Assembly: GCA_021845905.1 (NCBI GenBank)
Contig: JAJZVA010000015.1
Location: 1-58,436, forward strand
DNA length: 58,436 nt
Direction of reading: 5' to 3'
From: Pseudomonadota bacterium
Lineage (GTDB): Bacteria; Pseudomonadota; Alphaproteobacteria; Micavibrionales; UBA2020
Numbering within the stretch: position 1 is the stretch's first letter; each line of letters begins with the position of its first letter. Positions 18,845-29,294 of this stretch are shown here, piece by piece. The position numbers were made by a program, and so were the translations under genes. Under the pieces are notes generated by a model. That model was not told the DNA's origin, searched no databases, and saw only the letters and a program-made list of their open reading frames with translations.

Positions 18845-20296
18845 TTATTTCTCCGGAAAGGGGTTGGGGCCGAGGATGCCGTGTCCGCCGCCCAAACCAT
18901 TGCCTTGTGCCTGCATGTTTTTGGCCATTTCTTCCATCTCGTTCATCGCGTTTCCGCCGAGCATGCCTTGCAGGCTGCGCATCATGCCCTTGCCGCCGAG
19001 CTTGTTCATGCGCTTCATCATCGTCTGCATGTCCTGAAACTGCTTCAGGACCTGATTGACCTGCTGCACCGTGGTGCCGGAACCGGCGGCGATGCGCTTC
19101 CTGCGCGAGGCGTTGAGCAGGTCGGGTTTGGCGCGTTCCTTGTTGGTCATGGAAAGAATGATGGCTTCGTGCTTTTTGAGGATGCCGTCGTCGAGGTTCG
19201 CGCCCGCCATGGCGTTCTTGATCTTGCCGACGCCGGGCAGCATGCTCATCAGGCCGGAAAGGCCGCCCATCTTCTGCATCTGGCGGAGCTGGTCGAGATA
19301 ATCGCCGAGGTCGAAGTTACCCTTGGCGAGCTTTTCGGCGGCCTTCTTCGCGTCTTCGAGCTTGATGTTTTCGGAGGCTTTTTCGACCAGGCTGACGATG
19401 TCGCCCATGTCGAGGATGCGCCCCGCGATGCGCGCCGCGTCGAACGGCTGCAGAGCGTCCATCTGCTCGCCGACGCCGAGGAACTTGATCGGCTTTTGCG
19501 TGACCGCGCGCATGGAGAGCGCCGCGCCGCCGCGCGCGTCGCCGTCAATGCGGGTGAGGATGATGCCGGTGATGCCGACGCGGGAATGGAAGTTTTCCGC
19601 CGTGACGACGGCGTCCTGACCCGTGAGGCTGTCGGCGACGAGCAGGGTTTCGACCGGTTTGGCGAGATCGCGCACGGCGATCAGTTCGTTCATCAAATCG
19701 TCGTCGATGGACAGACGGCCCGCGCTGTCGAGGATCAGCACGTCATAGCCTTCGAGCTTCGCGGCTTTGAGCGCGCGCTGGGTGATGGCGGCGGGTTTTT
19801 CGCCCGCGACGATCGGCAATGTCGCGACATTGATCTGCCTGCCCAGAATTTCCAGCTGTTCCTGCGCCGCCGGACGATACACGTCGAGCGAAGCGAGCAG
19901 CACTTTCTTGCGCAGCTTGTTCGTGATGAATTTGCCGAGTTTTCCCGCGCTGGTGGTTTTGCCCGAGCCTTGCAGGCCGGCCATGAGGATCACGGCGGGC
20001 GGCTGCGTCGCGAGATTGAGTTCGGCATTTTCGTGGCCGAGCGTTTCGATGAGCGCGTCGTGGACGATCTTGACGACCTGCTGGCCCGGGGTGACGGAGC
20101 GCAGGACTTTTTCGCCGATCGCTTCTGCGCGCACCTTGTCGATGAACGCCTTGACGACCGGCAGGGCGACGTCGGCTTCGAGCAACGCCGTGCGGATGTC
20201 GCGCAAGGCGAGCAACACGTCTTCCTCTTTCAGCGCGCCGCGCTTCTTGAGGGCGTCGAGGACGTTGCCAAGCTTTCCGGTCAGGTTTTCAAACAT
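18845..20296 (-). CDS. ffh: signal recognition particle protein Ffh
   Basis: The SRP54 GTPase that, with 4.5S RNA, delivers membrane proteins to FtsY at the inner membrane. The 483-aa protein has the N domain, G1 GLQGSGKTTSAGKL, DVYRPAAQEQL, the DSAGR motif (DVLILDSAGR), and TRIDGDARGGAALS, then a Met-rich M domain (QTMMKRMNKLGGKGMM, MNEMEEMAKNMQ). It precedes rpsP in the same direction, as is usual. The gene encoding the 4.5S RNA was not found in the window. Confidence 0.97.
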   Translation of the reverse strand: MFENLTGKLGNVLDALKKRGALKEEDVLLALRDIRTALLEADVALPVVKAFIDKVRAEAIGEKVLRSVTPGQQVVKIVHDALIETLGHENAELNLATQPPAVILMAGLQGSGKTTSAGKLGKFITNKLRKKVLLASLDVYRPAAQEQLEILGRQINVATLPIVAGEKPAAITQRALKAAKLEGYDVLILDSAGRLSIDDDLMNELIAVRDLAKPVETLLVADSLTGQDAVVTAENFHSRVGITGIILTRIDGDARGGAALSMRAVTQKPIKFLGVGEQMDALQPFDAARIAGRILDMGDIVSLVEKASENIKLEDAKKAAEKLAKGNFDLGDYLDQLRQMQKMGGLSGLMSMLPGVGKIKNAMAGANLDDGILKKHEAIILSMTNKERAKPDLLNASRRKRIAAGSGTTVQQVNQVLKQFQDMQTMMKRMNKLGGKGMMRSLQGMLGGNAMNEMEEMAKNMQAQGNGLGGGHGILGPNPFPEK

Positions 20297-20651: not shown

Positions 20652-21704
20652 TCAGGCGGGTGCGCGGGCGGGAACTGCATTTGGCGCAGGCGCGGCTTTT
20701 TGCACGATCGGCATGTTGAAGAGAATATCTTCCTGCGCCAGCTTGAATTCGCGCAGCTTCAGTTTTTGACGCAACGCGTTCCGCTCGTCCTGCGGGATGT
20801 TGAGAGGCTTGCCGTCCATGGCTGCCTCATCACGCAGATACCCGTCGAGCAGAATTCTGCCGCACCTGAAGCCGTAATAGCCGTTTCCGGGATCAAGCGT
20901 GATTTTCGCGAGCTCTTTGAAAGCGTCTTCCGGAGACGTGGAAAATGATTTTACAATCGGCGCGTAAATTTCATGCAGATAGTCAATCACGGCTGGCGGC
21001 GGCGCATATCGCATGGCGAACCGCCAGGCCAGATTGGCAGTTTTGTCGGCATCCATGTTTTTGAAATCGATCATATCCTTGCGCTTGATGATTTCTTCGA
21101 GAACGAAGGAGGTGAAATGCGAAATGGCGTGTGTTTTATTGTTCTTTTTCGCCATATAGATAGCGCGGTGGAGCGGATTTGCGGGGTCGTCAGCGGTTTC
21201 TTCCTCCGTGCCGTAGCGCTGATAATGAGACAGCAGGGAGTAGGAGTCGGCGATGCATTCGGCGATTGTGGCTTCGGACAAGTTGTTGTCTTTAAATCCT
21301 TCAGGCGTTGTCAGATGCCCCAATTCATGATCAAGAATATAAAGAAGAAGTTTCTTGGCTTTTCCGGACAGGCTGGAGAGTTCTTTTTCCAGTTTTTCTT
21401 TTTTTATCACGTCGGCCATGTCGAGCACGATGAATTTTATATCCGTATTTTCAAACAAGATCACTTCCGATCCTTCAAGATCGTTTATCCGGTAAAATTT
21501 GTTTATACAATTCAGGGCTTCTTCTTTTTTGTTTTCAGGCATGTCTCTTCCGCTATAGAGGCGAAGAGAGTGTATATTGTAGACGCTGAGCTTGTCCTTC
21601 AGAGCGGGAAAACGCTCTTCCGTCTCGTCAACAAAGCCCTGACAAAGTTCATCTATCGTGCTTACCCTGTCATGCAGTTGCTGTTTTGCTGTTACGTTTG
21701 TCAT
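20652..21704 (-). CDS. predicted HExxH metallopeptidase-like protein (paralogue A)
   Basis: A 350-aa protein of unrecognised family with a zinc-peptidase signature. HELGH at residues 126-130 would supply two zinc-binding His and the catalytic Glu; AECIADSY at 148-155 could supply the third ligand (Glu149), a gluzincin-like spacing of 18 residues. It has no signal peptide or membrane helix. It shares with the adjacent gene the blocks DHELxH, HYQRYG, HFTSFVLEEIIKRKDMIDF, and a C-terminal FNMPIVQK followed by a Pro/Ala tail. It is more AT-rich than housekeeping neighbours. The two genes probably arose by duplication; substrate and role are unknown. Confidence 0.75.
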   Translation of the reverse strand: MTNVTAKQQLHDRVSTIDELCQGFVDETEERFPALKDKLSVYNIHSLRLYSGRDMPENKKEEALNCINKFYRINDLEGSEVILFENTDIKFIVLDMADVIKKEKLEKELSSLSGKAKKLLLYILDHELGHLTTPEGFKDNNLSEATIAECIADSYSLLSHYQRYGTEEETADDPANPLHRAIYMAKKNNKTHAISHFTSFVLEEIIKRKDMIDFKNMDADKTANLAWRFAMRYAPPPAVIDYLHEIYAPIVKSFSTSPEDAFKELAKITLDPGNGYYGFRCGRILLDGYLRDEAAMDGKPLNIPQDERNALRQKLKLREFKLAQEDILFNMPIVQKAAPAPNAVPARAPA

Positions 21705-21856: not shown

Positions 21857-22936
21857 TCAGGCGGCTTTGAAAGACCGGTTGAAGCTGACCACATTGTTGC
21901 CCGGCGGTTTCGGCTTTTGCACGATCGGCATGTCGAAAAGAAGGCCGTCGTTTTCGAACTTTTCCGTGCGCGTTTTCAGCTTCGCCACGACGTCGTCGAG
22001 ATATTGCCTGGGCAGCTGGATGGGCCGGCCGTCGGGGTATGTGCCCGTTGCCAGCATGTCCTTCAGCCAGAGGCTTGCGAACTTGAAGGTGTAATAATCC
22101 GCCTTCGGATCGAGCGCCTTGCTGACCAGCGCCTTGACGCCTTCTTCCTTGTTGAAGCGGAAGATGTTGCGGATCGGCGCGAACGCAAAGGAGATATCCT
22201 GCACGACGCGTTTCGGCGGCATGTATTCCAGCGCGAAGCGGCGGGCGAGATCCGCCGTCTGTTGCGGCGTCAGTTTGTCGAAGTCGATCTTGTCCTTTTG
22301 CTTGTTGATGGCTTCGAGAACGAAAGAGGTGAAGTGCACGGAATCCCCGCTGAGGATGAAGTTTTCCGCCCGTCCGCCGGGGCTGACGTATTTGTTGTGC
22401 GCGTATTCGTCCACGCCGTAGCGCTGGTAGTGGCGGATTTGCGCGTAGGCGTCGGCGACGGACTCGCCGAGAAGGATATTGTAGTCATAGGCCGACTGGA
22501 CGTCCCTTGACGCGCCGTCCTTGATGGCGTTGTGCGCCAGTTCGTGATCCATGACATAAAGCAGATGTTGCTCCGTTTCCTTCGAAACGCCGGCGCGCTC
22601 CGCCGGGCTGACGGATTCGTTCATGAACACGAGCATCAGGTTGCGCTTTTCGTCGCGGGTGGCGGCGGAAGACATCGCTTTGTTACGCTCCATCTCCTTG
22701 TAAAGCTGGTGGTTGCTGATGTAATCCGGCACATCTTCCCTGGCGAGGCCCGTTTTCTGCTTGTCGACGGATTCGGCGTAGACTTTCTTTTCGTCCATGT
22801 CGACGATCAGAATCTGGCCCTTGAGGTGCGGAAAACGCGCGACGGCGTCATGGGCGAACTCGTTGAAGATTTCCGACAACGATCTCCCTTTGGGCGCAGG
22901 CGCCGCCTGCGATGAAGAAGATAGCGATGATTGCAT
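21857..22936 (-). CDS. predicted HExxH metallopeptidase-like protein (paralogue B)
   Basis: A 359-aa protein. Start ATG 22936 is preceded by AGGGGG; an upstream in-frame ATG is not. It begins with a Ser/Ala/Pro-rich stretch (MQSSLSSSSQAAPAPKG), then an unrecognised domain with HELAH at residues 131-135 and GESVADAY at 157-164 (candidate third ligand Glu158, spacing of 22 residues from the second His), then HYQRYG and VHFTSFVLEAINKQKDKIDF. The C-terminus has LLFDMPIVQK followed by Lys/Pro and an Asn/Ser-rich end. No signal peptide is present. The same pattern in paralogue A shows they are homologues. Its own terminator suggests it is transcribed separately. Confidence 0.78.
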   Translation of the reverse strand: MQSSLSSSSQAAPAPKGRSLSEIFNEFAHDAVARFPHLKGQILIVDMDEKKVYAESVDKQKTGLAREDVPDYISNHQLYKEMERNKAMSSAATRDEKRNLMLVFMNESVSPAERAGVSKETEQHLLYVMDHELAHNAIKDGASRDVQSAYDYNILLGESVADAYAQIRHYQRYGVDEYAHNKYVSPGGRAENFILSGDSVHFTSFVLEAINKQKDKIDFDKLTPQQTADLARRFALEYMPPKRVVQDISFAFAPIRNIFRFNKEEGVKALVSKALDPKADYYTFKFASLWLKDMLATGTYPDGRPIQLPRQYLDDVVAKLKTRTEKFENDGLLFDMPIVQKPKPPGNNVVSFNRSFKAA

Positions 22937-23120
22937 GATAGTAACCCCCTGTAGTTTTTTTTGAGATGAGATATCCACATAGCCTACGAAAGTTAGTATC
23001 AATTAGAGTATTGAAAGGGTTAATAATTTGTCAAGAAAATGCACTTTTTTAGTAATTTATTTTTACTTTATGAAATATTGTGGGCTGTTTTATTTTCCTC
23101 ATATCTGCTATTTATAGCGT

Positions 23121-24719
23121 ATGACAAAAGAATGGTGGTCTTTGGAAAATTATGCGCGCCGCATTCCTTATCTTAAGGAACGCGCGCAAATCGTTGCGGA
23201 GGTGCGCGAATTTTTTAATGCGCGCGGTTATCTCGAAGTCGAGACGCCGGCGTTGCAGATCGCGCCGTGCATGGAGCCGCATATAAAAGCGTTTCGCACG
23301 GAAAGCGTTTACAGCCCGGGCTTGTATCTTCACACCAGCCCCGAGTTCGCGATGAAAAAACTGCTCGTCGCGGGCCTGCCGAAAATCTATCAGATCGCGC
23401 AGGTGTTCCGCGACGAGGAAAAATCGAAACTGCACAGCCCGGCCTTCAGCCTGCTCGAATGGTATCAGGCGGGCATGGATTATAAGGAGATGATGCAGGA
23501 GACGATCGACCTCGTCCGCGCCGTCGTGCGGGAGAAGATCGTCTTTCACGGCAAAACCTCCGATCCGTGCGCGGAATGGGAAATCATCACGGTTGCCGGT
23601 GCCTTGAAAAAATACGCAGGCGTGGATATTTCCGCGCACCTTGGCGATCTTGCGCACATCAGGGCGGAAGCGGCGCGCATCGGCGTTTACGTGTCACCTC
23701 ATGACGACTGGGAAAACGCGCTTTTAAAAATCCTGATGGACAGGGTCGAGCCGCATCTCGGCGCGCCCGCGCCGGCGATTTTGTGCGATTATCCCGTTTC
23801 GATGGCCGCGCTCTCGCGCCCGAAGCCCGAAGATCCGCGCTTTGCCGAGCGGTTCGAGGTTTATATCTGCAGCGTCGAGCTTGCCAATGCCTTTGGCGAG
23901 CTGACGGACGCGACGGTGCAGCAGATGCGCTTCTTGCACGATATCGCCTTGCGCCGGAAAATTTACGGCGTCGATTATCCTCTGGATGAAGATTTTATCG
24001 CCGCGCTAAAACACGGCATGCCCGCCGCGAGCGGCAATGCGCTCGGCATCGACCGTCTCGTCATGCTGCTGACCGGCGCGGAGGATATCGCGCTGGTGCG
24101 GGCGGCGCCGGTGGAGGAAAATCGGCACACCGGCTGGACGGCGCTGCATCATGCCGCAGCCGCCGAGGCAGAAGGCATCGACGTGGCGAAGATCGTGGCG
24201 GAGTTGTTGGATGCGGGGGCGGATCCGCACGCGCCCGACAGGAAAGGCGACACGGCCTTCAATATCGCCGCGCCGTCCTCGCCGGTTGCGGGGCGCTTGA
24301 TGACCTTGCATTGGCTTTCAGGAAAAACAGCGAAGGGGCTGAACGAAACATCGGGTTCGCACGGCTCGACGCTTGCGCAATATATCGCCAAATGGTCGCG
24401 TGACGACGAGATCGAGGCGCATTTGAAAACAGAAGGCTTGAAGATCGATATTCAAAACGCCAGCGGCTGGACCCCGCTCCATGCGGCGGCGGCGATGGGC
24501 CGCGCAAAGGCGGTGGAGGTTCTCGCGCGATTCTATGATGCTAAATCCCGCGCCGCCCTGACGAGGGAAGAATACCGCGCGAATTATAACGGACATACGG
24601 TCGTTTACGCGGCGGGTCTGGACGCGGCGGGCATTGCGCGTGCGCGGCTTGCGCAGGATAAAGGCCTCTCGCCCGCCTTGCGCGAAGATTTGCAAGCGTG
24701 CGGAGAGCTTCTCGTTTAA
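23121..24719 (+). CDS. epmA: EF-P--lysine lysyltransferase EpmA fused to C-terminal ankyrin repeats
   Basis: Residues 1 to about 330 are a complete EpmA/GenX (class II lysyl-tRNA-synthetase-like) enzyme, which attaches (R)-beta-lysine to elongation factor P. Visible: EVETPALQIAP, LYLHTSPEFAMKKLL, the motif 2 region FRDEEKSKLHSPAFSLLEWY, SVELANAFGELTD, and motif 3 GNALGIDRLVMLLTGA ending near residue 320. The reading frame then continues without interruption into about 195 residues with ankyrin-type repeats: TGWTALHHAAAAE (337-349), VAELLDAGADPHAPDRKGDTAFNIAA, and SGWTPLHAAAAMGRAKAVEVLAR (448-470), with later weaker copies. EpmA is normally about 330-350 aa and has no such tail. EF-P and EpmB genes are not in the window. 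A start at 23121 gives the canonical WWSLENYARRIPYL N-terminus. Confidence 0.88.
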   Translation: MTKEWWSLENYARRIPYLKERAQIVAEVREFFNARGYLEVETPALQIAPCMEPHIKAFRTESVYSPGLYLHTSPEFAMKKLLVAGLPKIYQIAQVFRDEEKSKLHSPAFSLLEWYQAGMDYKEMMQETIDLVRAVVREKIVFHGKTSDPCAEWEIITVAGALKKYAGVDISAHLGDLAHIRAEAARIGVYVSPHDDWENALLKILMDRVEPHLGAPAPAILCDYPVSMAALSRPKPEDPRFAERFEVYICSVELANAFGELTDATVQQMRFLHDIALRRKIYGVDYPLDEDFIAALKHGMPAASGNALGIDRLVMLLTGAEDIALVRAAPVEENRHTGWTALHHAAAAEAEGIDVAKIVAELLDAGADPHAPDRKGDTAFNIAAPSSPVAGRLMTLHWLSGKTAKGLNETSGSHGSTLAQYIAKWSRDDEIEAHLKTEGLKIDIQNASGWTPLHAAAAMGRAKAVEVLARFYDAKSRAALTREEYRANYNGHTVVYAAGLDAAGIARARLAQDKGLSPALREDLQACGELLV

Positions 24720-25453
24720 GCGGCGAAGCGGCGCGCGCTGTCATAGCCTAAACCCAGCGCGACGCTGGAAAGTTTGTTGTCCTCGGAGAGCGCGGCGGCG
24801 GGGAATCCGTTTTTAATGAAACGTTTCAAGAGCGGCGTCTCCGTTGGCCCGCCGGTGAGGACAACCAGCTTGATCCTGTCTTTCGCAACGTTGAACAGGG
24901 CGAGGCATTCCGCAATCGCGGAGGATATTTTCTCCACGTCGGAGGCAATGGCGTCTTCGAAATCCCTGCGCGTCATGTCGATGCTGAAATCAGGCTCGAT
25001 CAATCCCAAATTCGCCGTCGTGCTTTCCGCATCCGTCAGGGCGATCTTCGCCTGCTCGGTGATATCGAGCAGGTTGTGGCCGGTTTCGCCTTCCAGCACG
25101 TTTTGGCAGCGGTCGTGTTTTCGTCCGGCACGCGGATCGAGGCGGATGACCATGAAATCCGATGTGCCGCCGATGATCTCGTCGAACTTGCGCGGCCTGT
25201 TGTTGACCTGCGTGCTAAAGTTCATCAGGTTGGTGCCGAGCAATCTTTTCAGGCTACGCATGAAGCGTCCTTCTTCGCCTTCGGTGAAAAGCCGCATGGC
25301 GGCATGGCCGTAGACGGGCGGCTTTTGAAGCGGATAAAAAAGCGCGCTTGGCAGGGTGATGTTGTTTTGTTCCACCGGCGCGAGCCTGACGCCTTGTTCA
25401 TCCGCGATGGCGATGGCCGAGTTCGAGGTGCCGAAATCAATCCCGCAATACAT
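24716..25453 (-). CDS. Hsp70/YegD-family protein with two in-frame internal deletions
   Basis: 245 aa, against roughly 430-450 in the YegD-type family. The N-terminal phosphate-1 motif GIDFGTSNSAIAI and the C-terminal adenosine-site LTGGPTETPLLKRFI are intact. Between them the family's middle is missing in two places. One gap follows NNRPRKFDE, where the chain jumps to IIGGTSDFMVIRL, so about 100 residues with the rest of subdomain I are absent. The second follows RAGRKHDR, jumping to LEGETGHNLLDITEQAKIALTD, so about 100 residues of the second lobe are absent. The phosphate-2 motif is altered (EIIGGT where DIGGGT is expected). Frame is preserved throughout and the ribosome-binding site GGAGGTGA is strong, yet a functional ATPase is unlikely. 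The stop overlaps the end of the EpmA-ankyrin gene by 4 bp. Confidence 0.72.
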   Translation of the reverse strand: MYCGIDFGTSNSAIAIADEQGVRLAPVEQNNITLPSALFYPLQKPPVYGHAAMRLFTEGEEGRFMRSLKRLLGTNLMNFSTQVNNRPRKFDEIIGGTSDFMVIRLDPRAGRKHDRCQNVLEGETGHNLLDITEQAKIALTDAESTTANLGLIEPDFSIDMTRRDFEDAIASDVEKISSAIAECLALFNVAKDRIKLVVLTGGPTETPLLKRFIKNGFPAAALSEDNKLSSVALGLGYDSARRFAA

Positions 25454-25510: not shown

Positions 25511-26440
25511 TCAGGCGGCTTTTTTCTTGCGCGGTTTGGCGGTCTGCGCCTTGCTCACCAAAAACGCATAGGTGAGAATCTTGTAAGCCAGCTTGGCGGC
25601 GAGGAAGTTGCAGCCGTGGAGGTTGGGCTTGGGCGCGAGTTCGTTGACGTCCGCGCCGACGAAGTTGGAAACCTTCGCGACTTCGCGGATGATGTCGACC
25701 GATTCCTGCCAGAAGAGCCCGCCCGGCTCCGGTGTGCCGGTCGCGGGCATCAAGGAGGCGTCGAGTCCGTCGATGTCGAAGGTGACATAGACGTTCTTGC
25801 CTTTGAAGTGGCTGACGATCTCCTTCATGTTCCACTTGGCTTTCTCTCGCGCCCAGTAGATTTTGACGCGCTGGCCGCTCTTTTCAAGGAAAGGGATTTC
25901 GCTCTGCGAGATGTTGCGGATGCCGAAGGACGAAAGCCAGGTCACGCTCTTGTGGTCGAGCACGCGGCGGAGCGCCGCGGCGTGGCTGTAATGCTCGCCG
26001 TCGTAGCCGTCGCGCAAATCGGCGTGCGCGTCGAAGTGCAGAACGTGCAGATCTTTATAGCGCTTTGCAAAGGGGCGGATGGTGCCCGCGGTGATCGAAT
26101 GCTCGCCGCCGAAGGTGATCGGGAACTTGCCCATTTGCAAAACCTCTTCGACCATGGCTTCGAGCTGGTCGAGCGCCTTGGGCACGTTCTTGCCGATCTT
26201 CGGCTCGACGGCGGTGAGGATGCCGATCTGGCGGAACGGCTCGCACCAGAACTCGTCGTCGAACAGTTCCACCTGATGCGAGGCGTCGATCATCGCCTGC
26301 GGGCCTTTCGAGGTGCCGCCGCCGTAGGAGACGGACGCTTCGAGGCCGAAGGGAACGACGACGGCCTGCGCGGATTTCACCGTCGCCGCGTCTTTTTTCT
26401 CAAGGCCGAGAAAGGCCTTGTCGGGCGTCATGAATTGCAT
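25511..26440 (-). CDS. speB: agmatinase / ureohydrolase
   Basis: A 309-aa ureohydrolase with the binuclear manganese signatures GGEHS, HFDAHADLRD and FDIDGLDASLMPATGTPEPGG. Agmatinase hydrolyses agmatine to putrescine and urea; arginase or a related guanidino substrate cannot be excluded. The C-terminus is Lys-rich. GGAG lies six bases before the ATG at 26440. It follows the deoxyhypusine-synthase-like gene on the same strand, supporting a polyamine role, although arginine decarboxylase is not in the window. Confidence 0.88.
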   Translation of the reverse strand: MQFMTPDKAFLGLEKKDAATVKSAQAVVVPFGLEASVSYGGGTSKGPQAMIDASHQVELFDDEFWCEPFRQIGILTAVEPKIGKNVPKALDQLEAMVEEVLQMGKFPITFGGEHSITAGTIRPFAKRYKDLHVLHFDAHADLRDGYDGEHYSHAAALRRVLDHKSVTWLSSFGIRNISQSEIPFLEKSGQRVKIYWAREKAKWNMKEIVSHFKGKNVYVTFDIDGLDASLMPATGTPEPGGLFWQESVDIIREVAKVSNFVGADVNELAPKPNLHGCNFLAAKLAYKILTYAFLVSKAQTAKPRKKKAA

Positions 26441-26462
26441 TTTTTACTCCTGTACAAACGCC

Positions 26463-26568
26463 ATGCAGCACTTGTTGCTGCATCCATATGGACGCCGGAA
26501 CGAGCCCGGCGTGGCGGTGATTGTTTGTTCGGATCCCGGATCAAGTCCGGGATGACATCTGCGATGTC
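26463..26568. repeat. cluster of four palindromes including an alphaproteobacterial intergenic element
   Basis: Four consecutive hairpins fill the gap between the two genes. ATGCAGCA/TGCTGCAT is at 26463-26483; ACGCCGG/CCGGCGT at 26492-26512; ATCCCGGA/TCCGGGAT with loop TCAAG at 26533-26553; and GACATC/GATGTC at 26554-26568. The third is the core of a palindromic sequence widespread in alphaproteobacterial intergenic regions. The last one overlaps the stop codon of the deoxyhypusine-synthase-like gene. They may stabilise or terminate the upstream mRNA. Confidence 0.8.
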
Positions 26569-27643
26569 ATTTGAACAGCTTCGCCCAGTTGCGGCGGGCG
26601 CGCTTTTTCCAGTGGGCGCGGTGATAGGCGTCGGAAGCGAGCAGCGGAATGACCGAACCCGCTTCTGCATAGACCATTTGTTCCATGGCGACGTCGACCT
26701 TGCCCCACGAGCAGGCTTCCTTCAGCGTCGAGGAGGAGCAGGCGCCGTCGCGCACGTCGGCGACCGTGACCTGAATGGCGTATTTGTGCATTTCGACGTT
26801 TTTGTGGCCGAGAATTTCCGCGCAGACGACGGTGTCCTGCACAAAGTTCTTCGGCACGCCGCCGCCGATCATCAAAAGGCCGGTGGTGCCCGCGGCGATC
26901 TTGATGTCGGTCAGTTCGCGGAAGTCGGCGACGCTGTCGATGGAAACATAGTTTTTAAGGCCTTTTTCGAGGCTCTTCTTCTGGTGCAGCACGAGGCCGA
27001 AACCGGCGGAAGAATCCGAGAACGCGGGGCAGAAAATCGGCACGCCGTGTTCATAGGCGGTTTGCACCAGCGAGTTTTTCTTCTTGGAGTTTTTCGAGAG
27101 CCATTTGCCCATCTCCCAGATGAACTCGCGGGAAGAGTAGGGGCGGCGCTCCAGGGATTCCGCGATCTTGAAGATCGTGCCGTCCACTTCCTGCAAATCT
27201 TCTTCATCAATATATGTGTCGTAGATGCGGTCGATGTAAAGGTCGCGCAGGTCGCGGTCGTCCACCGCGCCGTCGGCCTGCCAGTGCTTGAAGCCGAGCG
27301 CTTCGAAGAAGTCCATGTCGACGATCGAGGCGCCGGTCGAGACGATCACGTCGACCATGTTGCTCTTGACCATTTCGGTATAGAGGTCCATGCAGCCGCC
27401 CGCCGAGGTCGAGCCCGCGAGGGTGAGGACGGAGGTCGCGTTTTTGTCCTTCAGCATGGTGTTGAAGATTTCCGCGGCGCGGGCGAGGTCGCGCGAGGTG
27501 AAGGACATTTTGCCCATGCCCTTGATGATCGGCCGGGCGTCGAAGGATTTGATGTCGATATGCTCGACCGGCACGGAGAGCAGGTCGGCCTTGCGGTTGT
27601 TTTTGGGGTGCGGCTTGGGTTTCACCGATTTCAGGTTTTTCAT
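26567..27643 (-). CDS. deoxyhypusine synthase-like protein (probable homospermidine synthase)
   Basis: A 358-aa protein of the deoxyhypusine synthase family. Visible: TLAGSTSAGGCMDLY, ASIVDMDFFEALG, FCPAFSDSSAGFGL, LMIGGGVPKNF, and the active-site block EACSWGKVDVAMEQMVYAEAG, in which Lys315 corresponds to the catalytic lysine of eukaryotic enzymes (SWGK). Eukaryotic enzymes make hypusine on eIF5A from spermidine, but bacteria lack eIF5A. Related bacterial proteins have been assigned homospermidine synthase activity, joining aminobutyl groups from polyamines. It sits between a type III decarboxylase and an agmatinase on the same strand, fitting polyamine synthesis. Confidence 0.87.
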   Translation of the reverse strand: MKNLKSVKPKPHPKNNRKADLLSVPVEHIDIKSFDARPIIKGMGKMSFTSRDLARAAEIFNTMLKDKNATSVLTLAGSTSAGGCMDLYTEMVKSNMVDVIVSTGASIVDMDFFEALGFKHWQADGAVDDRDLRDLYIDRIYDTYIDEEDLQEVDGTIFKIAESLERRPYSSREFIWEMGKWLSKNSKKKNSLVQTAYEHGVPIFCPAFSDSSAGFGLVLHQKKSLEKGLKNYVSIDSVADFRELTDIKIAAGTTGLLMIGGGVPKNFVQDTVVCAEILGHKNVEMHKYAIQVTVADVRDGACSSSTLKEACSWGKVDVAMEQMVYAEAGSVIPLLASDAYHRAHWKKRARRNWAKLFK

Positions 27644-27674
27644 GGCGTCTCTCTTTCTTTGATTTCAGGGGATG

Positions 27675-28859
27675 TTAAACAGTGGCCGGTTCTTTCGCGT
27701 CCTCGAGCTCGTACATCGAAGCAAGAGGCGGCGCGGCGACGGCAACCGTTTCCGTCGCGTCGAAGCCGTTGAAGGCGGTGCGCATGGTGTTGCCGTAGGC
27801 GCCGAGCTGTCCGATCTCGATATAATCGCCTTCGCGCACGTCTTCGGGCAACATAAAGGGGCCGGGCATGTAGTCGATACTGTCGCAGGTCGGCCCGTAG
27901 AAGCGGAAAGGCTTGAGGCGCGCCTCGGTGCCGCCGGGAACGGGACGGATCAGCCGCACGGGATAGCGGAAGCCGAGGTGCCCCGCGTCGAACAGGCTAC
28001 CGTAGGTGCCGTCGTTTATATAGAGAACGTCGTTCTTGCGCAGGTCGACGCGCGTGATGACCGAGCAGCTCTCGGCGACCAGCGCGCGGCCCGGCTCGCA
28101 CCAGAATTCCGTGCGGTCGCCGTGCGGCAGACGGTCGAAGCCCTGCTCGATCGCGGCTTTGTAATCGGCCAGCGCGGGCGGGCTCATGTCCGGATAAAGC
28201 GACGGAAAGCCGCCGCCGACGTCGACGATATCGACCTTGGTGCGCGGAATGGACTGCAAAATCTCGGCGACCAGCGCGAGCGCGGTGATGTAGGCCTGCG
28301 GATCCATGGTTTGCGAGCCGACGTGAAAGGTGATGCCAAGGCGTTTGGCCGCCTTGCGACCGGCTTTCAAGAGGGCGGCGGCCTTTTCCGGCAACACGCC
28401 GAACTTGCCGGAGAGCGGCAGTTCGGATGCCGTATTGGGCACGGCGAGGCGCAAAAGCAGTGTCAGATCCTTGCTCTTGCCGGTGCAGGTGACGATTTTT
28501 TCCAGCTCTTCAAGGCTGTCGAAGGCGAAATCGCGCACGCCGTGGTCGAAATAGGCGCGTTCGATGGCGCTGCGGCTTTTGACCGGATGCATGAAGGCGA
28601 GGTGCGCTTTGGGCAGGAGACCGCGCACCAGCTCGACTTCGGGAATGGAGGCGACGTCAAAATGCCTGATTCCGGCATGAAAAAGCCCCGTGAGCACATA
28701 TGGCGCGGGGTTGGCCTTGACGGCGTAAAGAACCTTGCCGGGAAAATTCTGCGTGAACCATTTGGCGGCGGCGGAAAGAGATTCCGGGCGGAAGCAGGTT
28801 ACAGGAATATCGGGACGGCGCTGGCGCACCAATTCGTCCGGCGTATCGTAATTATCCAT
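27675..28859 (-). CDS. ornithine/lysine decarboxylase, type III PLP fold
   Basis: A 394-aa alanine-racemase-fold decarboxylase. The PLP lysine is in VLYAVKANPAPY (Lys48), and the glycine-rich phosphate site is VDVGGGFPSLYPD. The substrate-site GPTCDSIDYMPGP supplies the catalytic cysteine across the dimer. The proteins called ornithine (or lysine) decarboxylase in alphaproteobacteria have this form; carboxynorspermidine decarboxylase is a less likely alternative. It would make putrescine (or cadaverine) for the downstream deoxyhypusine-synthase-like enzyme. Start at 28859 (MDNYDTPDEL); an upstream start adds a non-conserved stretch. Confidence 0.88.
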   Translation of the reverse strand: MDNYDTPDELVRQRRPDIPVTCFRPESLSAAAKWFTQNFPGKVLYAVKANPAPYVLTGLFHAGIRHFDVASIPEVELVRGLLPKAHLAFMHPVKSRSAIERAYFDHGVRDFAFDSLEELEKIVTCTGKSKDLTLLLRLAVPNTASELPLSGKFGVLPEKAAALLKAGRKAAKRLGITFHVGSQTMDPQAYITALALVAEILQSIPRTKVDIVDVGGGFPSLYPDMSPPALADYKAAIEQGFDRLPHGDRTEFWCEPGRALVAESCSVITRVDLRKNDVLYINDGTYGSLFDAGHLGFRYPVRLIRPVPGGTEARLKPFRFYGPTCDSIDYMPGPFMLPEDVREGDYIEIGQLGAYGNTMRTAFNGFDATETVAVAAPPLASMYELEDAKEPATV

Positions 28860-29294
28860 TTCATGCAGTCTCCATAGAAACAGTAACAACGTACCCTTCC
28901 GGACGAATCACTCCGCCTTGGGGCCTTTATAATTTTAATCATATACGGTGATTCTTGAATTTTTGTAAAGAAAACTTTATGGATTTGAAATTATTTTGGA
29001 GGCGTGAGAGAAACGCTTGCGCCGCAAGCGCAAAAAAGCCGGTGCTGTTGCGCGTGGGAAGCTTCCGGCAGAAGTCAGAAAAGCTTTTTCGAAGCGTCAC
29101 GGCGGGGTATCCGTTTATCGCGGCGGCGGCTTGGCAAGTGTGAAGCGCACGGCGCGGCGCGCGCGGCGGCGCACTGAATGGGTACGAGATTTTTCTATAC
29201 ATAATTTTGAAATCGTGTATGATCTCCCCTGCGCGCGCCGGAAAAATAAAAAATATATACTTTTCAATAAGATAAGCGCGAAAAAGAGGATGAG
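28860..29294. other. intergenic region between the polyamine operon and typA
   Basis: About 435 bp of divergent upstream sequence. Both ends are AT-rich and the centre is GC-rich. An 8-bp palindromic pair, CGCTTGCG (29014-29021) with CGCAAGCG (29023-29030), sits near the middle. Several short open frames pass through it on both strands, including a very basic one from a TTG at 29017, but none has protein-family features. A promoter for each flanking gene is expected; GAGGATGAG before the typA ATG is its ribosome-binding site. Confidence 0.5.

Follow-up and report, generated by a model that had tools for sequence, protein, structure and literature searches.

An EpmA-type EF-P lysyltransferase fused in frame to an ankyrin domain in a small Micavibrio-related clade

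The window analysed here, a contig of 58,436 nucleotides (C23), belongs to a 2.42 Mb genome (G000) that is 98.8% complete and assembled in 26 contigs. On its forward strand, a complete EpmA sequence runs directly into an ankyrin domain, next to genes that are also found beside epmA in related bacteria:

18845..20296, reverse strand: ffh (TIGR00959, 576.7 bits), marking the ancestral epmA locus (trmD-rimM-rpsP-ffh ... epmA)
23121..24719, forward strand: EpmA-ankyrin fusion gene, 532 amino acids from an ATG in a single open frame
23121..24119, forward strand: EpmA half, residues 1-333, a complete catalytic core with motifs 1-3
24120..24131, forward strand: junction, residues 334-337 (NRHT), placed by alignment with stand-alone EpmA and stand-alone ankyrin proteins
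24132..24716, forward strand: ankyrin half, residues 338-532, defined by Pfam Ank matches, identity to stand-alone proteins and AlphaFold2 (AF2) models
24716..25453, reverse strand: Hsp70-like gene (PF00012), convergent with the fusion gene and overlapping its stop by 4 bp
25511..26440, reverse strand: agmatinase-like gene (TIGR01230), the downstream neighbour of epmA both in an unfused congener and in the fused species

Neither an internal stop nor a frameshift was found in 23121-24719 on the forward strand, and the claim of a preliminary description that EpmA and ankyrin sequences share one frame is thus borne out by the 532-residue open reading frame. We conclude that the fusion is genuine, lineage-specific and traceable, and that it gives a known enzyme a new domain architecture within one small Micavibrio-related clade.

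The same description had read the first half as a full EpmA core through motif 3. Indeed, TIGR00462, the EpmA equivalog profile, covers residues 18-326 with 358.9 bits (curated cut-off 286.9); PRK09350.1 scores 291.4 on this half (cut-off 264), and the PF00152 match spans residues 17-330. The solved EpmA structures 3a5z and 3g1z align with residues 13-331 at an E-value of about 1e-58. An N-terminal anticodon-binding domain is absent, the core starting at residues 13-18. In an alignment of the fusion EpmA with eight other EpmAs, one of them gamma-proteobacterial, the columns of R97, E100, H105, E113, E253, N256, E260, G305, A307, G309 and R312 are invariant, with R97 and E100 located in motif 2 and A307 and R312 in motif 3. 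We count among these columns the arginine of motif 2, the glutamates and the asparagine that bind lysine, and the alanine and arginine of motif 3. The motif 3 alanine sets EpmA apart from LysRS.

No second EpmA was found in the window genome. Its EF-P, encoded on another contig (C6, 86645-87193), keeps the PGKG loop with the modified Lys34 (...SPGKGAA...), a loop reported in 97% of EF-Ps from organisms with both YjeA and YjeK (PMC2821294). In G024, a member of the same order, neither an EpmA nor an EpmB-like protein was found, and its EF-P is devoid of the PGKG loop. The KamA-family protein of the window genome reaches 243 bits with TIGR03821 (EpmB), below the cut-off of 369. Because the catalytic residues are conserved and the lysine loop of EF-P is kept, the EpmA half is probably active on EF-P; it would most likely still activate (R)-beta-lysine and attach it to Lys34.

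In the second half, Pfam Ank_2, Ank_4, Ank and Ank_3 exceed their gathering cut-offs from residue 338 to about residue 475, and AF2 models the tail with a pLDDT of about 76-95. Its last ~50 residues were modelled as a beta-hairpin followed by two helices, unlike canonical repeats. The assignment of the tail to ankyrin repeats therefore stands, while the earlier figure of about 195 residues was slightly generous. That the tail could be another EpmA-like domain is excluded by both profile and fold. The stand-alone orthologue described below is modelled with a pLDDT of 92.7 and a pTM of 0.88, and in the PDB it matches ankyrins best (Z up to 14.6, rmsd 4.2 over 194 residues). For the tail itself, no one solved structure stood out as the closest, the best-scoring ankyrins being tied in the comparison with the PDB. 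In the AF2 model of the full fusion, for which the alignment of the EpmA half held only three sequences, that half lies mostly below a pLDDT of 50. Residues 408-432 (window positions 24342-24416) form a near-invariant stretch, N-x-x-SG(S/A)HxSTLAQYxAKW, that recurs in all orthologues and is better conserved than the remainder; it is possibly a ligand-binding site.

Where do the two halves come from? The order of the rplS-like, trmD, rimM, rpsP-like and ffh genes (rplS and rpsP assigned from their position, trmD and rimM from profile matches) is common to the window and to the sister genera g2 and g3, which carry an ordinary EpmA of ~335 amino acids near ffh; synteny of ffh and epmA was seen in g1, g2 and g3. 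This shared gene order near ffh places the EpmA half at its ancestral position. A stand-alone protein of ~240 amino acids in g2 and g3 shares 49-61% identity with the ankyrin half; its gene is unlinked to epmA and lies between a glutamine-synthetase-like gene and clpX (both named from their sequences), with a creA gene ahead of it in some genomes. These stand-alone proteins (L117-L121, L124, L125) share the orthologous domain and the invariant SG(S/A)HxSTLAQYxAKW with the fusion tail, but they are encoded by an independent gene and mostly possess an extra N-terminal repeat, whereas the tail is joined to EpmA without that repeat. The window genome has retained the glutamine-synthetase-like gene and, next to it, the FAD-oxidoreductase gene; no separate ankyrin orthologue was found in it. 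As judged from these sequence comparisons, the ankyrin half is the orthologue of this specific stand-alone protein, now joined to the 3' end of epmA.

The junction contains no real linker. In the alignment, the EpmA C-terminus (...RAAPVEE) passes almost directly into the second ankyrin repeat (GWTALHH), and the stand-alone EpmA ends in ...APV. The ankyrin half lacks the first ~35 amino acids of the stand-alone protein, i.e. its first repeat, which forms two helices in the AF2 model of that protein. In the congener G007, an unfused EpmA ends in ...ASPVKTSGG and a stop, followed by a small membrane-protein-like open reading frame and then by agmatinase, an arrangement that represents the state prior to fusion. 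The fused proteins form one clade of the EpmA tree (support 100/96) with G007 as its sister (96/94). Comparison with the relatives thus shows that, in one sub-clade of a Micavibrio-related genus, a stand-alone ankyrin gene came to lie at the 3' end of epmA, that loss of the EpmA stop and trimming of the first ankyrin repeat yielded one in-frame protein, and that the original ankyrin gene vanished.

A search for the same architecture, as the preliminary description had suggested, returned the full-length fusion in two congeners and both of its ends in a third. G004 carries it in a 534-aa frame at 81% identity and G005 in a 543-aa frame at 79% identity. In G002, residues 1-99 lie at one contig end next to the neighbours known from the ffh side, and residues 423-530 lie at the end of another contig, next to agmatinase, a layout as would be expected for the same fusion gene split by an assembly gap. 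Pairwise dS among the fused species is about 0.6-1.05, and dN/dS lies at 0.10-0.15 in the EpmA portion and at 0.13-0.18 in the ankyrin portion; both halves are therefore under purifying selection.

Is the fusion found beyond this clade? EpmA was detected above the cut-off in 186 of 398 sampled genomes of the phylum. Among the matches listed, 13 EpmA frames of about 428 amino acids or more showed no C-terminal extension, their extra length being upstream read-through, and a widespread architecture was rejected, as these long frames end soon after motif 3. All other EpmAs inspected stop about 30-35 residues past the start of motif 3, in line with the earlier statement that EpmA is otherwise a stand-alone protein, while the fusion has ~200 residues more. 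A scan for the ankyrin family in about 85,000 GTDB genomes gave 11 loci, with fusion only at those of G004 and G005; most of the others bear the title Micavibrio or Alphaproteobacteria. When the class was searched for the family at E <= 1e-20, the window genome alone was recovered among 385 sampled. One stand-alone homologue (L122:3959-4669) lies in a contig of 39% GC binned as 'Rhizobium sp. Q54' and reflects either bin contamination or horizontal transfer. No EpmA or ankyrin homologue was confirmed in viral contigs, the matches from phage collections were ordinary EpmA-like records, and a viral origin was rejected; so was a defence function, for which PADLOC returned just weak, ankyrin-driven hits.

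In the literature searched, no paper combines EF-P, EpmA and an ankyrin repeat, and no such architecture is described, as had been supposed from the outset. A large survey counted EpmA solely as single-domain proteins (PMC6544042), a criterion under which such a fusion would be left out; any survey demanding a single domain would overlook variants of this kind. The closest known system is EpmA itself (GenX, PoxA or YjeA of E. coli; PDB 3A5Z and 3G1Z), the EF-P (R)-beta-lysine ligase, which has the same LysRS-class core with all motifs, no anticodon-binding domain and, as its partner, an EF-P with a PGKG loop; known EpmAs end about 30 residues past the start of motif 3, whereas the fusion adds an ankyrin domain of ~200 residues. 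LysX of Mycobacterium, in which LysRS is fused to an MprF domain (PMC9437257), likewise joins a LysRS-family catalytic core to another domain, but it is not an EpmA, transfers lysine to lipid, and its added domain is an enzyme rather than an ankyrin module. Bd3460 of Bdellovibrio (PDB 5CEC), an ankyrin self-protection protein which acts by binding enzymes and inhibiting them (PMC4686830), has the fold of the tail (Z 13.0, rmsd 4.7 over 188 residues, a match that many other ankyrins equal); however, it is a separate protein directed at peptidoglycan endopeptidases, and the likeness is that of the repeat fold only.

Does the ankyrin half serve EpmA and EF-P? Our best explanation, to which we assign a probability of about 0.45, combines the fusion history given above with an active EpmA and an ankyrin module that serves EF-P modification in cis. 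The ankyrin half would be a folded binding module that holds a partner beside EpmA or EF-P and thereby recruits or regulates the modification, and the stand-alone ankyrin protein of the sister genera would play the same role in trans. The earlier suggestion that EpmA could be tethered or regulated through its tail is plausible. In the family, a weak pattern of joint presence or absence of the two genes points to a shared role: of 18 genomes, 12 have both genes or the fusion, in four (G001, G003, G006 and G010) neither was found, and two have one alone, G007 having EpmA without the ankyrin protein and G014 the reverse. The co-occurrence (Fisher p = 0.008) is computed over related genomes with no correction for relatedness or missing sequence, and four of these six absence or exception genomes are assemblies less than 90% complete, G007 and G014 being just 79% complete. 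We read the ffh locus of G003 and G001 and found no EpmA there. The four genomes in which EpmA was not found (loci L176, L177, L178) do have the PGKG loop of EF-P and a KamA-family protein.

The main alternative is that the fusion is a passenger, i.e. EpmA modifies EF-P as usual, the ankyrin half keeps an unrelated role, and the covalent link is tolerated and may only couple expression. We regard this as a serious possibility, somewhat short of even odds. The genes are unlinked in g2 and g3, so nothing there shows a joint role; furthermore, the two halves are conserved separately, and the junction adds no linker and takes away one repeat only. Against it speak the retention of the covalent link in at least three well-diverged species and the joint presence or absence of both genes in the family. 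We thus slightly favour functional coupling over a passenger fusion, and the lean is weak because the genomes are related, several are incomplete, and EpmA often occurs in the absence of this ankyrin protein once one looks beyond the family. If the ankyrin half is a passenger, the locus is a well-resolved case of two unlinked genes merging in a small bacterial clade.

A frame that yields two proteins, either from an internal start near residues 315-331 or by proteolysis at the junction, is improbable. An in-frame GTG at 24096 is preceded by GGAGG, and the same stretch occurs in G004, but the GGAGG falls in codons of the conserved EpmA stretch GAED, the GGAGG/GTG pattern was not found in G005, and the stand-alone ankyrin genes of the relatives have a normal start of their own. 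Still less credible is a loss of enzyme function that would leave the EpmA half as a scaffold: EpmA was not found in some congeners and may thus be dispensable in the genus, which is nothing direct, while the active-site residues are conserved, dN/dS in this half is low, EF-P keeps its Lys34 and the genome yielded no other EpmA. Although every available sequence is a metagenome or draft assembly, we give practically no credence to an assembly chimera or sequencing error that put the two genes together, and rule it out on the identical junction in three assemblies of species apart by a dS of about 0.6-1.05.

So far, EpmA has been regarded as a minimal enzyme of one domain with EF-P as the only protein it recognises. 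Its lasting fusion to a protein-binding module suggests that a third partner can regulate or localise the modification of EF-P; for this partner, the stand-alone ankyrin protein of the sister genera is a concrete candidate. The stronger proposal, that this protein is a hitherto unrecognised partner or regulator of EF-P modification which EpmA has incorporated in this clade, so that the gene would be a 'Rosetta stone' fusion exposing a missing component of the beta-lysylation pathway, we consider rather unlikely.

The neighbourhood of the fusion gene shows further peculiarities. Between ffh and epmA, as elsewhere in this genus, lie two tandem paralogues of 350 and 381 amino acids (20652-21704 and 21857-23002, both on the reverse strand) with HExxH-type motifs (HELGH and HELAH), for which no Pfam or NCBIfam match was found. 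The agmatinase gene belongs to a polyamine-type cluster adjoining the fusion (25511-28889, reverse strand), together with a deoxyhypusine-synthase-like 1,9-bis(guanidino)-5-aza-nonane synthase and an ornithine/DAP-type decarboxylase. In this genome, the Hsp70-like gene is reduced to 245 amino acids, compared with 415-422 in G004 and G005; its product aligns with the 422-aa copy in G005 over residues 5-110 and 292-422, with about 180 middle residues gone.
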